A stretch of 64,000 bases of DNA. Source: Treponema sp. GTDB taxonomy: Bacteria; Spirochaetota; Spirochaetia; Treponematales; Treponemataceae. Below, piece after piece: positions 5,953 to 11,731 of the stretch. The position numbers were made by a program, and so were the translations under genes. The notes beneath the pieces were generated by a model. It did no database searches. It was not told where the DNA came from and worked only from the letters and a program-made list of their open reading frames with translations. The stretch spans positions 1 through 64,000 of the forward strand of contig JAAYNH010000100.1 in the NCBI GenBank assembly GCA_012520945.1, read 5' to 3'. Each line of letters starts with the position of its first letter. Positions within the stretch are counted from its first letter, which is position 1.

Positions 5953-7587
5953 TTAGAAAATGAATGGATTGTCTAGTAGACTGGAAATTAGCATGGCAAC
6001 GTCTAAATAACCGTTTTTACGTTTTTTTGCATAAACCTCAGCATATATAAAATTTTGTTCATGCATAACTTTTACTTTTAAAATTTCAACAGGATCATTT
6101 TCTGAAAAGCTGGATTCATCTGCACTTGAGCCTGGAATAATTGACTTTATGACAAATTTTTTCTTAATATCCGAAACAGGAACAAGTTCCATACCAAAAA
6201 TCGGATACATTGCATTATGCAAAAGTTCACTATCAAAAATTTTTACAACAGGGTTATCAGGTCTACTTTCCAAGCGAATTTTTCGTACAACATTTTTTCC
6301 ATCAACTGTTTTAACTTCAAATGGTACTATTGTATTAGGCAAATAATAAAGTAAAGCATTTTGCATTTTTTCAATTGAATCAATTTCTATATCACCAATT
6401 TTATAAATTAAATCACCTTTTTGTAAACCTGCATAAAATGCAGAACCTCCCGTCATAGTATAAAAAACTTCTACACCAATACCGTCTGAATCAATTGGAT
6501 TAATTTTTTTTGTACGTCCATATGCACCACACCAAGAATGTTCAATTTTACCGCCAATATATAAATTAGGTAAAATTAATTTTAAATATTCAACAGGAAT
6601 TGCAAAATTTAATCCTTCAAATTGTAGCATACCTGCAAAAACAATTCCTTGTACATTTCCTTTTTGATCTATAATCGGCCCACCTGAATTTCCGGTATTA
6701 ACAGCGGCATCAATTTGCATAACAGAGGCAACGGAAAAAAGTTTTCTGTTAAATGCAGAAACAATTCCACTTGTCAAAGTTTTTTCCAAACCAGCAGGAG
6801 AACCAATTGCAAAAATTTTATCACCAATATTAATATTTTGAGATGAACCAAGTTTAAAACAATATTTTGGAGTAACTTCAACTTTTAACAGGGCTAAATC
6901 AAGAGTAGGATCCCAACCGATCACCTTTGCAGGAATTCTAGAATCAGGATCGTCACTCATCTTTACATAAACTCTTGAAAAACCTTTATATTTTGGATCA
7001 ACGTGTTTATCAATCACATGATGATTTGTAACTATGTATCCACGATCATCAATAAAAAATCCTGAACCAATAACTCTTTCAGGAAAGCCAACTCCTTTTT
7101 CAATTTTTACACCTAAGTCTACCCAAATTGTAACAGTTCCATCAATATAATTTGAAATTTTATTTTCATAATTTTTTTGAGATTTTGTATTTAATATCAT
7201 TTCAATTTGTTCATCGAAAAATAAATTAAAATCAAATTCCAAAGATTTTAATTTTTCCGAATTACATGTTTTTAAACTCAAATAATATTTCCATATATCT
7301 AAAAAAGAATTATTTTCAATATGTTTTTTTAATGAATTAAAAACTTTTTCTTCGCTTTTTACAAATATATTTTTTACATTTTCATCAAAACTTGCTGCAT
7401 CAAAAAGATGAATTGCTTTCTCTAGTGCACGAATTTCATCAACTTCTATCAATTTTTCAATTTCTTTAATTTCTGTTTGTCTAATCTTTTCATCGGAATA
7501 TTCAATTGCACTCGGAATAATTTTAATATCATCTGTAGCACAAGAAAAGAAACAGAAAAGAAAAATTAAAATCTTAAAAAATTTCAT
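5953..7587 (-). CDS. HtrA/DegP-type serine protease, lipoprotein
   Basis: A 544-residue protein with a lipoprotein signal ending at Cys16 (lipobox F-F-S-C). An N-terminal helical part of about 150 residues precedes a trypsin-like domain with the complete triad: His190 (in TNHHV), Asp230 (DLALLK) and Ser301 (GNSGGPI). A PDZ-like domain follows (about 365-425, G-L-Q-K-G-D-L-I) and a second, more divergent C-terminal domain may be another PDZ. It probably acts in envelope protein quality control, anchored to a membrane through its lipid. Its start overlaps the end of the upstream TPR gene by 14 bases, which indicates translational coupling. The long N-terminal extension is not typical of DegP. 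Confidence 0.88.
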   Translation of the reverse strand: MKFFKILIFLFCFFSCATDDIKIIPSAIEYSDEKIRQTEIKEIEKLIEVDEIRALEKAIHLFDAASFDENVKNIFVKSEEKVFNSLKKHIENNSFLDIWKYYLSLKTCNSEKLKSLEFDFNLFFDEQIEMILNTKSQKNYENKISNYIDGTVTIWVDLGVKIEKGVGFPERVIGSGFFIDDRGYIVTNHHVIDKHVDPKYKGFSRVYVKMSDDPDSRIPAKVIGWDPTLDLALLKVEVTPKYCFKLGSSQNINIGDKIFAIGSPAGLEKTLTSGIVSAFNRKLFSVASVMQIDAAVNTGNSGGPIIDQKGNVQGIVFAGMLQFEGLNFAIPVEYLKLILPNLYIGGKIEHSWCGAYGRTKKINPIDSDGIGVEVFYTMTGGSAFYAGLQKGDLIYKIGDIEIDSIEKMQNALLYYLPNTIVPFEVKTVDGKNVVRKIRLESRPDNPVVKIFDSELLHNAMYPIFGMELVPVSDIKKKFVIKSIIPGSSADESSFSENDPVEILKVKVMHEQNFIYAEVYAKKRKNGYLDVAMLISSLLDNPFIF

Positions 7588-9562
7588 CTATTATTTCCCC
7601 AAAACAAAAGCCGTTAACCTTAAATGCAAAAATTTTTTTATCACCTATTTCAAAAATATCTAAACCATATGATGAATTTAATTTTTGCATTATTATTTTT
7701 GCTTCATTATTTTTACCAACTTTACCTATCCAATAAAACTCATAACTATCATCTTTAGTTACAGGAATTTCCATGTTTTGTTTTTTTATTAAAACAGGTT
7801 TATGATTTTTTAAAACACAATATACATTTTTGCCGGTTGTAAAATCTCTATAAAAAATTTCTTCATTACCTTGTGCATCATTTGAAAAGCCAATATCATA
7901 AACACCATCATCATCAATATCCCAGCCACAAACTTTTGTATTATTTTCTTTATATATTTCAAAATAATCATTAATGGAATTTCCATCCAAATCACATACA
8001 ACTTTTGATAAATATAATCCTTTTGGAGGATGTAATGTTCCAAACAAAATTTTTCCCATTGTATGTTGTTCTTTTTCTGTCTGAATATTGATATAGTTTT
8101 GTTCATCAAATGAATAAAATTCCGTAACTTCGAATCTTCCATCCATATCATTATCAACATTTCTGAAAAGAGGTAGCCCATTTTCAAATGCAGCATAAGC
8201 AAATTTATTGCCTGTAGATGAATAATAATTAGCAGTTATAATTTGTCCATTTAAAACAGTAAAGTGAATTGTACCATTTACACGTTCGTCTGTTGTAGTT
8301 TTGAAACCGGCTACATTATTTATAAAATTTTTAAAAGTTAGTTGTTTTGCATTTTCAAAAACATATTCAGGAAAAATAAAAGTAATATTGGACTTATCTT
8401 GAAAATTTATATGTTCAATAATTTTAAATTGAATTTCATTTGGAACAAGAATAACATCTTCGCCGGTTTCAAATTTTATTCTAGATACATCCGGATATTT
8501 TGAATATTCAAAGTTCATATTATATTTTGAATAATCCAATTTTATAATTTCATTATTTTTATATTCTGCTTCAAAAGTTAAAAAATCATCTTGTATTTCA
8601 AAAAATTCTACTTTGATTAATTGTCCATTTTCATAATAAGCATAAAAATCTTCAATATAATCTTTTGAATAATCTTTAGTAACAATTCCTGAATAATTAT
8701 TTAACAGTTTAAAATAAATTTCTTTATGAGTATTTTCAATTAATAATGAATAAAATTTTTCAAGTTGTGATTGTTTAAAATTTTTATTACCAATAGTTGC
8801 GAACAAATTTAGTGCTTCATCTGCTGTTTTTAATTGGGTTTCTAAAGCAAATATTATATAATCTAAAGAAATTTTATTTATTTTTTCAAATTCTAAAAGC
8901 ATTTGTTTTTGTTCTTCCTCATCAACGAAATGCGAAGCGTAAATTAAGATTTCAGGAGCAAAACGTTTCCAAGTATCAACAAGTTTTACAAGTTGTTTTG
9001 CCAAAAGAACATCTGTGTCATATGGATTTTCAATTTGAAAAAATAACAAGGCAAATCTTTCATCTCCGGTAAAAACTTTTCGTGCAGTTGAAATGTTTTT
9101 ACGAGCTGCAGAAAAATTTCCTAATCTATAATTCGATTTTGCACGAATAAATTCCGCATCCGAAGAAAAAATCGCAGGTTTTGAATCAAGAATTTTTAAT
9201 GCCTCTCCACTCCTATTTGTATCGCTCATATAATTTGCATATAAAATTCTTGCACTATCAGGATTAATTTCTCTCCACAGATTATTTTCAACTGCTTGCT
9301 TTACACAATCAATTGCCAAATATTTTTTTTCTCCAAGTGCAGCAAGAGAATATGCTTTCAAATAAAGTAAATCACTAAAGTTTTTTTCATATGCTAAACC
9401 ACGTTCAGTTTGCTCAAGAGCCTCTGTCCATTTTCCTTCCAAGGATAAACTTCGTGCAACTTGTGCATAACGTAATGCTGTTCTAAAACTTGCATTATCA
9501 ACTGCAGAAGAAAAGTATTCAAGGGCAAAAATAATTAATATAACTAAAAAAAACTTCTTCAT
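7574..9562 (-). CDS. Secreted TPR protein with EF-hand-like loops; function unknown
   Basis: A 662-residue protein with a Sec signal peptide (about residues 1-20). The first third is helical with TPR-like repeats (for example WTEALEQTERGLAYEKN). The remainder is strand-rich and has the look of repeated Y-E-N-G-Q / K-N-N-E antigen-repeat segments. Three acidic loops near the C-terminus match the EF-hand/dockerin spacing: D470-x-D-x-D-G-x(5)-E481, D524-x-D-x-N-x(3)-D-x(2)-E535, and one starting at D548. They could bind calcium. The ribosome binding site AGGGG (9568-9572) sits inside the end of the adjacent tandem repeat. The gene overlaps the downstream protease gene, so the two may work together in the periplasm. 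I cannot assign a function. Confidence 0.7.
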   Translation of the reverse strand: MKKFFLVILIIFALEYFSSAVDNASFRTALRYAQVARSLSLEGKWTEALEQTERGLAYEKNFSDLLYLKAYSLAALGEKKYLAIDCVKQAVENNLWREINPDSARILYANYMSDTNRSGEALKILDSKPAIFSSDAEFIRAKSNYRLGNFSAARKNISTARKVFTGDERFALLFFQIENPYDTDVLLAKQLVKLVDTWKRFAPEILIYASHFVDEEEQKQMLLEFEKINKISLDYIIFALETQLKTADEALNLFATIGNKNFKQSQLEKFYSLLIENTHKEIYFKLLNNYSGIVTKDYSKDYIEDFYAYYENGQLIKVEFFEIQDDFLTFEAEYKNNEIIKLDYSKYNMNFEYSKYPDVSRIKFETGEDVILVPNEIQFKIIEHINFQDKSNITFIFPEYVFENAKQLTFKNFINNVAGFKTTTDERVNGTIHFTVLNGQIITANYYSSTGNKFAYAAFENGLPLFRNVDNDMDGRFEVTEFYSFDEQNYINIQTEKEQHTMGKILFGTLHPPKGLYLSKVVCDLDGNSINDYFEIYKENNTKVCGWDIDDDGVYDIGFSNDAQGNEEIFYRDFTTGKNVYCVLKNHKPVLIKKQNMEIPVTKDDSYEFYWIGKVGKNNEAKIIMQKLNSSYGLDIFEIGDKKIFAFKVNGFCFGEIIDEIF

Positions 9563-9580
9563 ACATACCCCTATAAAAAG

Positions 9581-9721
9581 TTACTGAGAAAATTTCAATT
9601 TTCGAAAATAACTTTTTATTGCACTTTCGCAATGAAATGAGAAAGTGCAGTATATTAGCAAGTTTGTTTTATACAAACTTGACAATGAGTAGAGAGGCGC
9701 TATTTTAGCCGAGCTACTCAT
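9581..9721 (-). CDS. Possible 46-residue small protein inside repeat copy 1
   Basis: An ATG at 9721 is preceded by AGGGGG (from the end of repeat copy 2) at a suitable distance. The frame runs 46 codons to TAA and reads M-S-S-S-A-K-I-A-P-L and so on. The copy-2 frame differs from it by two synonymous Tyr codon changes and one Ile/Val change, which is what selection on a protein would leave, although three changes are too few to prove it. No homology or domain is recognised. The main alternative is that the frame is a by-product of a hairpin repeat. Confidence 0.3.
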   Translation of the reverse strand: MSSSAKIAPLYSLSSLYKTNLLIYCTFSFHCESAIKSYFRKLKFSQ

Positions 9722-9739
9722 TAATCCCCCTATAAAAAG

Positions 9740-9880
9740 TTACTGAGAAAATTTCAATTTTCGAAAGTAACTTTTTACTGCACTTTCGCAATGAAATGAG
9801 AAAGTGCAATATATTAGCAAGTTTGTTTTATACAAACTTGACAATGAGTAGAGAGGCGCTATTTTAGCCGAGCTACTCAT
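9740..9880 (-). CDS. Possible 46-residue small protein inside repeat copy 2
   Basis: This is the same frame as in copy 1, starting at ATG 9880, 12 bases after the ftsH stop codon. Unlike copy 1 it has no ribosome binding site in front, so translation would depend on coupling to ftsH. It is very similar to its neighbour (Val for Ile at residue 35). Coding status is uncertain. Confidence 0.25.
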   Translation of the reverse strand: MSSSAKIAPLYSLSSLYKTNLLIYCTFSFHCESAVKSYFRKLKFSQ

Positions 9881-9892
9881 CTAAAAAATGTT

Positions 9893-11731
9893 TTATACAA
9901 CCTCAACAGTTTCAGAAACAGGAACAATTTTTAGCAATTCTCTAATTTCTTCATCGTCCATCGTTTCTTTTTCCAACAATTCTTTTGCTAAACTTTTTAA
10001 TTGTTCAATATTTTTTCTTAAAATTTCTTCTGCTTTACTTTGAGCAAATTTAATAATTTTTTTTATTTCAAAGTCTATTTCTTCTGCAGTTTTTTCTGAA
10101 TAATCTTTGTATCGTGCTATTTCTTTACCCATAAAAATAGGTTCATCATCTTGCCCAAAACTTACAGGACCTAGATCCGACATACCCCATTGACAAACCA
10201 TATTACGTGCTATTTCTGTTGCACGTTGAATATCATTTTGTGTTCCCGTTGTTGTATCATTATAAATGACTTTTTCGGCAGCATAACCACCATGCAAAAT
10301 TATAAGCTGATCCTTTAAATATTCCTTTGTATGACTATAAGAATCTTCCTTTGGTAAACCAATTGTTACTCCCAATGCACGCCCTCGCGGAATTACAGAA
10401 ACTTTATGCAAAGGCGAAACATTTTTAAGATGATAATACATAAGAGTATGTCCTGCTTCATGAACAGCAGTCATCTCGCGTTCTTTTTCAGGTAAGACCA
10501 TCGACTCCCGTGCAACGCCCATAAGAATTTTATCACGTGCAAACTCAAATTCTTCATCACCAACTATATTTTTATCTTTTCTTGCCGCAAAAAGAGCAGC
10601 TTCATTAATTAGGCTTGATAAATCTGCACCACTCATGCCTGGTGTTGCACGTGCAAATTTTTCTAAATCAACTTTTTCATCCATTTTAATTTTTTTTGCA
10701 TGAACTTTTAAAATTTCCGTACGTTCTTTTACATCAGGCATTACAACATGAACTTGTCTGTCAAAACGACCGGGTCGTAAAAGTGCTTTATCTAAAACAT
10801 CAGGACGGTTTGTAGCCGCTAAAATTATAATTCCGCTAGTAGATTCAAAACCGTCCATTTCAACAAGTAGTTGATTTAATGTTTGTTCACGCTCATCATG
10901 ACCACCTCCAAGACCGGAACCACGACTTCGACCAATTGCGTCTATTTCATCAATGAAGACAATTGCAGGAGCTGCTGTGCGAGCTTGCGAAAATAAATCA
11001 CGAACACGACTTGCTCCTACACCAACAAACATTTCCATAAAATCACTACCGGACATATGAAAAAAAGGAACATCCGCTTCACCGGCTACCGCACGTGCAA
11101 GTAAAGTCTTACCTGTTCCTGGATTTCCAACAAGTAAAACCCCTTTTGGAATTTTTGCACCAAGATCTAAATATTTATTTTTGTTTTTTAAAAAATCAAC
11201 AATTTCTTCTAACTCTCGTTTCGCTTCAACTTGACCGGCAACATCATTAAAAGAAATATTTTTTGAATTTTTATCATACAACTTTGCTCTACTTCTTCCA
11301 AATTGCATTCCACGTTCATTAGTTACAGAATTTTGACGCATAAGCATAAAAAAAACAAAAACCATCATTATCATTGGAAGTAAATTTATAATTACAGATA
11401 AAAAACCGTCTTTAGTTGTTTTTCCAAAAATTGCAACTTTTTTTTCACGAAGAAGTTTCATTAATTCTGCGTCAGCATAAGGAATATCTAATGTAACCGG
11501 AGTAATAACACCGCCGTTTGCAATGATTTTTGCATTTATAATTTTTTCATCTATGATGACAATTTCTTTAACATTATCATTTTCAAGAAAAGTCAAAAAA
11601 TCCGAATAACTAATTGTTGCAACAGTATTTTTATTAGTTATAAACATACTAAATAACAATGCAACAAACATTACAATAAAAAAAATAAATGCAAAAGAAG
11701 GCTTTTTTCTTTTTAAAATATTATTATCCAT
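9893..11731 (-). CDS. ftsH: ATP-dependent zinc metalloprotease FtsH
   Basis: A 612-residue membrane protease that degrades damaged membrane proteins and short-lived regulators. Two membrane segments (about residues 11-31 and 111-131) flank the periplasmic domain. The AAA module has Walker A GNPGTGKT (202-209), Walker B IVFIDEID and the arginine-finger region RPGRFDRQ. The zinc site is HEAGH (424-428), with a downstream acidic ligand expected in the M41 domain. It starts 9 bases after tilS, a pairing seen in many bacteria, so the two are probably co-transcribed. The 154-bp hairpin duplication follows directly and may separate its expression from the TPR gene. Confidence 0.97.

Follow-up and report, generated by a model that had tools for sequence, protein, structure and literature searches.

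Tandem copies of a four-hairpin TD-1 relative between ftsH and a TPR-like gene of Treponema sp.: a probable mobile element inserting behind the Shine-Dalgarno motif

Introduction

The IS200/IS605 and REP-RAYT systems are characterized by Y1 transposases, a fixed tetranucleotide and hairpin ends. The Rickettsia palindromic elements are palindromic repeats that can be read as open frames, insert inside genes and are translated. Among the RNA families of Rfam, TD-1 (RF03155), which is of type Cis-reg and comes from Treponema, belongs to the clan CL00124, as does TD-2 (RF03162).

Here we analyse a pair of repeats located in a stretch of 64,000 nucleotides of Treponema sp. (contig JAAYNH010000100.1, positions 1 to 64,000), which we term the window. 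It is noted that TD-1 itself is already known; judging from the comparisons below, the new part would be its mobility, the targeting and restoring of the Shine-Dalgarno (SD) motif, a fourth hairpin and the size classes. No mobile TD-1 that targets and restores the SD, no fourth hairpin and no size classes were found in the literature searched, with the original description of TD-1 lying outside it.

Results

The window carries two direct, in-register copies of the repeat (9559-9717 and 9718-9876, minus strand) with a spacing of 159 bp, located between ftsH and a TPR-like gene (Table 1). The two 159-bp units including the flanks are 96% identical and the 154-bp unit within them contains three differences, and because the copies are thus 98% alike the tandem duplication is considered to be recent. 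Along the minus strand each unit has the order H1, H2, H3, H4 and then ATAGGGG(G), with the joint from copy 2 to copy 1 reading ATAGGGGG-ATTA-ATG and that from copy 1 to the TPR-like gene reading ATAGGGG-TATGT-ATG. An earlier note on this DNA had described the tandem duplication of a 154-bp unit 159 bp apart, a 46-codon minus-strand frame in each copy, copy differences of the types Tyr/Tyr, Ile/Val and Tyr/Tyr, and a unit end that gives an SD-like motif ahead of the next ATG, all of which we confirm, with GGGGG ending copy 2 and GGGG ending copy 1. As for the two flanking genes that it had named, ftsH stands, and for the TPR gene the Pfam search gives only a sub-threshold TPR-like match of the downstream product.

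Table 1. Coordinates of the repeat pair, its hairpins and terminal motifs, and the neighbouring genes and frames in the window
Feature	Position	Strand	Basis
Copy 2 (adjoins ftsH), H1-H2-H3-H4 then GGGGG	9726..9880	-	repeat search, fold, TD-1 match
Copy 1 (adjoins TPR-like gene), H1-H2-H3-H4 then GGGG	9568..9721	-	repeat search, TD-1 match
H1 of copy 2	9844..9880	-	folds of 24 H1 regions, Rfam alignment
H2 of copy 2 (CAAGTTTG..CAAACTTG)	9818..9840	-	fold, paired columns in covariation test
H3 of copy 2 (TGCACTTTC..GAAAGTGCA)	9779..9808	-	repeat search, fold
H4 of copy 2 (TAAAAAGTTACT..AGTAACTTTTTA)	9733..9777	-	fold, compensatory changes
H1 of copy 1	9685..9721	-	
H2 of copy 1	9659..9681	-	
H3 of copy 1	9620..9649	-	
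H4 of copy 1	9574..9618	-	
GGGG, 3' end of copy 1, predicted SD of TPR-like gene, 5 nt ahead of ATG	9568..9571	-	
GGGGG, 3' end of copy 2, ahead of copy 1	9726..9730	-	
TPR-like gene, 662 aa, downstream	7574..9562	-	place behind ftsH conserved in relatives (tblastn)
ftsH, upstream gene	9893..11731	-	PF01434, 8e-66
46-codon frame of copy 1, judged non-coding	9581..9721	-	
46-codon frame of copy 2, judged non-coding	9740..9880	-	

The four-hairpin fold is obtained on either strand, with -52.9 and -55.0 kcal/mol, a z value of about -8 and none of 200 shuffles equalling it, so that the four consecutive hairpins that had been read in each copy are borne out by folding. For H2 and H4, both sides are changed in 11 of 20 pairs and the covariation score is 0.385 versus 0.058-0.125 for slid pairings; the base-pair covariation that had been proposed as a check is thus found in the form of compensatory changes in these two hairpins. 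When RNAalifold is run on the MAFFT alignment, H1 and H3 are missed, their stems being too divergent. The consensus scan found no terminator at H4.

H1, which has the arms ATGAGTAG..CTACTCAT in the window copies, was compared using individual folds together with an arm-swap check, the latter being illustrative only because the arms were hand-picked from the folds. Of 24 regions taken from 18 genomes, nearly all form H1, with the arms differing between genera; in one relative (L026 of genome G268) the free fold of H1 favours another pairing, yet the arms ATGAGTAG and CTACTCAT are intact. The loop of H1, around RAAATAGCG, is conserved across the compared copies, and so is the loop TTGAT of H4. 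Among named records, H1-like hairpins are present in Treponema and Spirochaetaceae metagenome assemblies. H1 is a general part of the element, extending beyond the Rfam model.

The window copies align with the TD-1 model, a three-hairpin consensus ending in UAGGA, over its full length (positions 1-120 of 120), copy 2 at 9729-9849 (minus strand; 59.1 bits, E 3.7e-9 for one genome) and copy 1 at 9570-9690 (minus strand; 55.0 bits, E 2.7e-8 for one genome). Since both scores are under the gathering cut-off of 64.5 bits, we describe the element as a divergent TD-1 relative, not as a formal member; two TD-1 copies elsewhere in this genome, on contigs C65 and C95, score above the cut-off, with 83.1 and 69.6 bits. 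The window copies share with TD-1 the H2-H3-H4 order, the terminal UAGGA, the position before genes and the Treponema family, whereas they differ from it by the sub-cut-off scores, by the possession of the whole H1, of which the Rfam consensus (starting with GUUuAuCUgC) has the 3' arm only and omits the rest, and by the reading as a mobile element here versus a cis-regulatory one in Rfam. TD-2 gives a weak opposite-strand match over H2-H1, with 40.0 bits at a cut-off of 48.7. Strong TD-2 members differ from the window element in their first and last hairpins and in lacking SD flanks. A fusion of TD-1 and TD-2 on opposite strands was dropped, because the TD-2 match is sub-threshold and the strong TD-2 loci look different. 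Matches of TD-2 are found in 163 of the 274 family genomes, and at two loci (L132 of G044, L133 of G034) TD-2 forms short tandem arrays without SD flanks.

By DNA alone (E<=0.001), related matches occur in the window's own genome and in 81 of the 274 family genomes, while the Rfam model (E<=0.01) finds TD-1 in 101 of the 274, spread over 12 of 20 genera; the 14 control genomes have no match at this threshold, and two of them match at a laxer E<=1, below the cut-off. The unit, which the earlier note had suggested searching for in this genome and in other treponemes, hence recurs in its own genome and family-wide, far more than chance would give. The own genome has eight TD-1 matches at E<=0.01, and as three of them are at contig ends the true number of copies is probably higher; the assembly seems to have broken at the repeat, with copies probably missing. 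TD-1 stands at contig ends in C65:5-125, C95:1-82 and 120-238, and C1:2-116 of this genome (G000; L067, L115, L118, L120), and two of the contig-end copies sit in a tandem array. In genome G037, 42 left ends are recovered with the H1 pattern (19 on one strand, 23 on the other), versus one with the reversed pattern. In the viral contigs searched with regard to phage carriage, no H1 pattern of the G037 type was found.

The position of the copies before genes is as follows. Behind copies ending in GGAG, GGGG or AGAGG (SD-ended copies, n=50), a start codon with at least 60 codons open is present 2-10 nt past the terminal motif in 48 of 50, with 45 of the 48 at 5-8 nt, and none of the 23 copies outside this set is before a start codon. 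The genes behind the SD-ended copies are unrelated (phosphofructokinase, chemotaxis receptor (MCP), FtsX-like permease, YidC, EPSP synthase, DapB, a LeuA-type enzyme, GMP synthase and others), and the copies, as is characteristic of TD-1, are upstream of non-homologous genes. On contig C108 of the own genome (L005:1490-1570), H1 and half of H2 followed by ATAGGAG lie directly ahead of the synthetase part of a GMP synthase gene, and the upstream frame ends just ahead of this copy. A second class of copies ends in TTTTAAGGAA(C/G) and has the left flank GAA(C/G) (G030, G033-G036, G053, G058, G059, G093, G094); its loci (L186-L189, L191-L205, L207, L210, L211) have GAA(C/G) on either side and the same hairpin architecture with another target motif.

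To see empty and filled sites side by side, we set two G037 stretches of 20 kb each against four or five congeneric species; their genus is not that of the window. At S3, G038 shows the empty form, TAATACTAGGAG AATAGATATG, whose filled counterpart is TAGTACTAGGAG ATACGATAAACAG...TTTTTATGGGAG AATAGATATG, that is, in the core alignment, ACTAGGAG/AATAGATATG versus ACTAGGAG/ATACGATAAACAG...TTTTTATGGGAG/AATAGATATG. Site S2, with the empty form TTTTAGGAG ATTTTTATG, conforms to this pattern. At S1 the insert is present in G037 and G038 and missing from G039, G041 and G044; at S4 it is present in G037 and G041, and the three species without it include G038, the one most similar to G037. Because the left motif of S4 is AAGAG and the empty sites of G039 and G041 at S1 are shortened, S2 and S3 are the clean cases. 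In these sister species the insert follows the GGAG of the SD immediately on its 3' side, and it, too, ends in GGAG. The right-hand GGAG may belong to the element or may be a 4-bp duplication of the target, and the two would look alike. By parsimony, the filled sites would have arisen by gain rather than the empty ones by precise loss. Like IS200/IS605 elements, the inserts of G037 are located 3' of a fixed motif that is repeated at the right end, with no further duplication, and this is not seen at the window copies.

Over the whole of G037, GGAG or GGGG is present within 12 nt upstream of 23 of 29 left ends versus 4% of random positions, and an SD and a start codon are present behind 27 of 29 inserts. 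The insert lengths are 49-54 bp (H1), 81-85 bp (H1-H2), 152-161 bp (H1-H4) and 218 bp (H1-H4 with an extra stretch in H4), H1 being present in every size class. The short forms (L264, L267-L271, L273-L277, L279), with H1 (~50 bp) or H1-H2 (~83 bp) between GGAG-like motifs, have behind them genes that, judged by eye from the first codons, include hslV, tpiA and proS. The extra ~65 bp in H4, shared by L185 and L282 (GATTCGCTATCCGCTTTAGCGGATACG...GGCTCTGA), itself forms hairpins and is possibly a repeat nested in a repeat. An autonomous copy in G037 was considered and rejected: among 42 left-end and 35 right-end matches, the unpaired left ends read were short forms, ordinary copies or chance, with no cargo. 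The same genome contains a high-copy sequence (L215:5412-6790) with a gene of the PDDEXK_2 nuclease family (PF12784, 'transposase'), which has many copies per sister genome.

At the junction of the window itself, a TPR-like protein match (tblastn) is present behind ftsH in 25 of 30 loci, counting that of the window. The 29 relatives, all of other genera, show no four-hairpin copy there, either by eye or by BLAST. The left flank of copy 2 is ACATTTTTTAG, without GGAG, and the original target to the left of copy 2 may have decayed; the window copies end in GGGG, not GGAG. Behind ftsH of G046 (L229), the sequence AATAAAAAG...GTTTTTATT, with GGGG on one side and GAGAGG on the other, may be what is left of an H1-only form; its best fold has no such hairpin.

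Discussion

We propose that the pair in the window is a non-coding, dispersed four-hairpin relative of TD-1 that inserts in the sense direction behind the GGAG of an SD and itself ends in an SD, and that was then duplicated, a reading to which we give a probability of about 0.8. Based on this proposal, one copy would have entered the ftsH-tpr junction in the way seen in the related genus, i.e., oriented, precise and behind GGAG, and would then have been duplicated, either through unequal recombination or because a further copy inserted at the SD that the first had brought. The insertion would take place in trans, by an enzyme that makes its cut behind GGAG and for which the hairpins, H1 in particular, are the recognition parts. 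The downstream gene would keep an SD, supplied by the terminal motif of the element, and the element in place would be part of the 5' leader, where it probably insulates the gene from translation upstream and gives the mRNA additional stable structure.

The earlier note had leaned toward coding, and it can also be supposed that each copy is a 46-residue peptide translated in relay, with the end motifs of copies 2 and 1 acting as ribosome-binding sites. The frames are indeed open, an SD-like motif stands ahead of the ATG of copy 1 and the copy differences are mostly synonymous. However, in the closest relatives found (L026 and L130 of G268) the hairpins are kept while the frame is shifted by a 2-nt difference in the H2 loop, and the frame stops after 17 codons in L027 and after 19 codons on contig C108 of the window's own genome. 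These four cases are just what had been named beforehand as the outcome that would speak against coding, namely other copies with broken frames and conserved hairpins, and the lean toward coding therefore fails. Moreover, the 46-residue product has no Pfam match, and arrays in other genera have the same architecture built from quite different sequences. A small protein-coding gene was thus rejected since the frame is not kept in relatives, the frames are, on these comparisons, judged to be non-coding, and the peptide relay is hardly credible. Equally far from credible is a recent neutral tandem duplication of ordinary intergenic sequence: the mere three differences between the copies do indicate that the duplication itself is recent, whereas the unit recurs in its own genome and family-wide with covarying stems. 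A neutral origin is possible for the presence of the second copy only.

The Rfam label suggests another reading, in which the element is a cis-regulatory leader RNA, with the hairpins binding a regulator or ligand and controlling the adjacent translation, and with its spread being due to recruitment. This would be consistent with the nearly constant sense position directly ahead of a start codon with the SD at the edge of the element, with the compensatory changes that keep the structure and with the conserved loops of H1 and H4. By contrast, the downstream genes share no function, orthologous genes in sister species are without the element, one genome has many copies that consist of just H1 or H1-H2, the second class sits away from start codons, and the hairpins could be kept for transposition instead; as a full explanation we regard it as unlikely. 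Note also that mobility and cis-regulation are compatible, and some copies may have been recruited as regulators. As to how the element moves, a REP/BIME or IS200/IS605-type palindromic element moved by a Y1 transposase (TnpA or RAYT) would likewise be palindromic and dispersed, would have hairpins at both ends and would insert in one orientation on the 3' side of a fixed tetranucleotide that recurs at the right end, the target being otherwise not duplicated. The differences are that the target of TD-1 is the SD, which is regenerated, and that the Y1 transposase (PF01797) has no match in the own genome or in the TD-1-rich genomes G030, G032-G041 and G044. Over the 274 genomes TD-1 and Y1 genes are, moreover, independent of each other (odds ratio 0.91, p 0.77), and a Y1 enzyme as the mover is accordingly doubtful, still less probable than the regulatory reading. 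The other suggestion of the earlier note, a REP-like repeat or a cassette that had jumped and duplicated and that carries a ribosome-binding site, thus largely stands except for the REP-type (Y1) transposase, which was not found in these genomes.

Compared with other short repeats, the proposed SD-targeting element resembles MITEs in being short, non-coding, dispersed and insertion-polymorphic, and differs from them in that, as comparison of the ends indicates, it has no terminal inverted repeats, H1 and H4 being separate hairpins with different arms. From the Rickettsia palindromic elements it differs by its place before genes and by a frame that is not kept.

Conclusions

It is an even bet, in our estimation, that TD-1 and its short forms constitute a family-wide class of SD-targeting mobile elements, always inserted in the sense direction and regenerating the SD, with a new mobiliser that is not of the Y1 type. 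If this is true, many treponeme genes owe to such insertions an exchangeable 5' leader with one, two or four hairpins, and their translation was kept.

With the proposed model, a candidate cis-regulatory RNA family would be recast as a mobile element and the family model would gain one hairpin. Mobility would account for TD-1 standing before unrelated genes with an SD at its edge, and the question of which enzyme moves TD-1 becomes testable. An SD target rebuilt at each insertion would make a parasitic repeat nearly harmless and able to join gene regulation.
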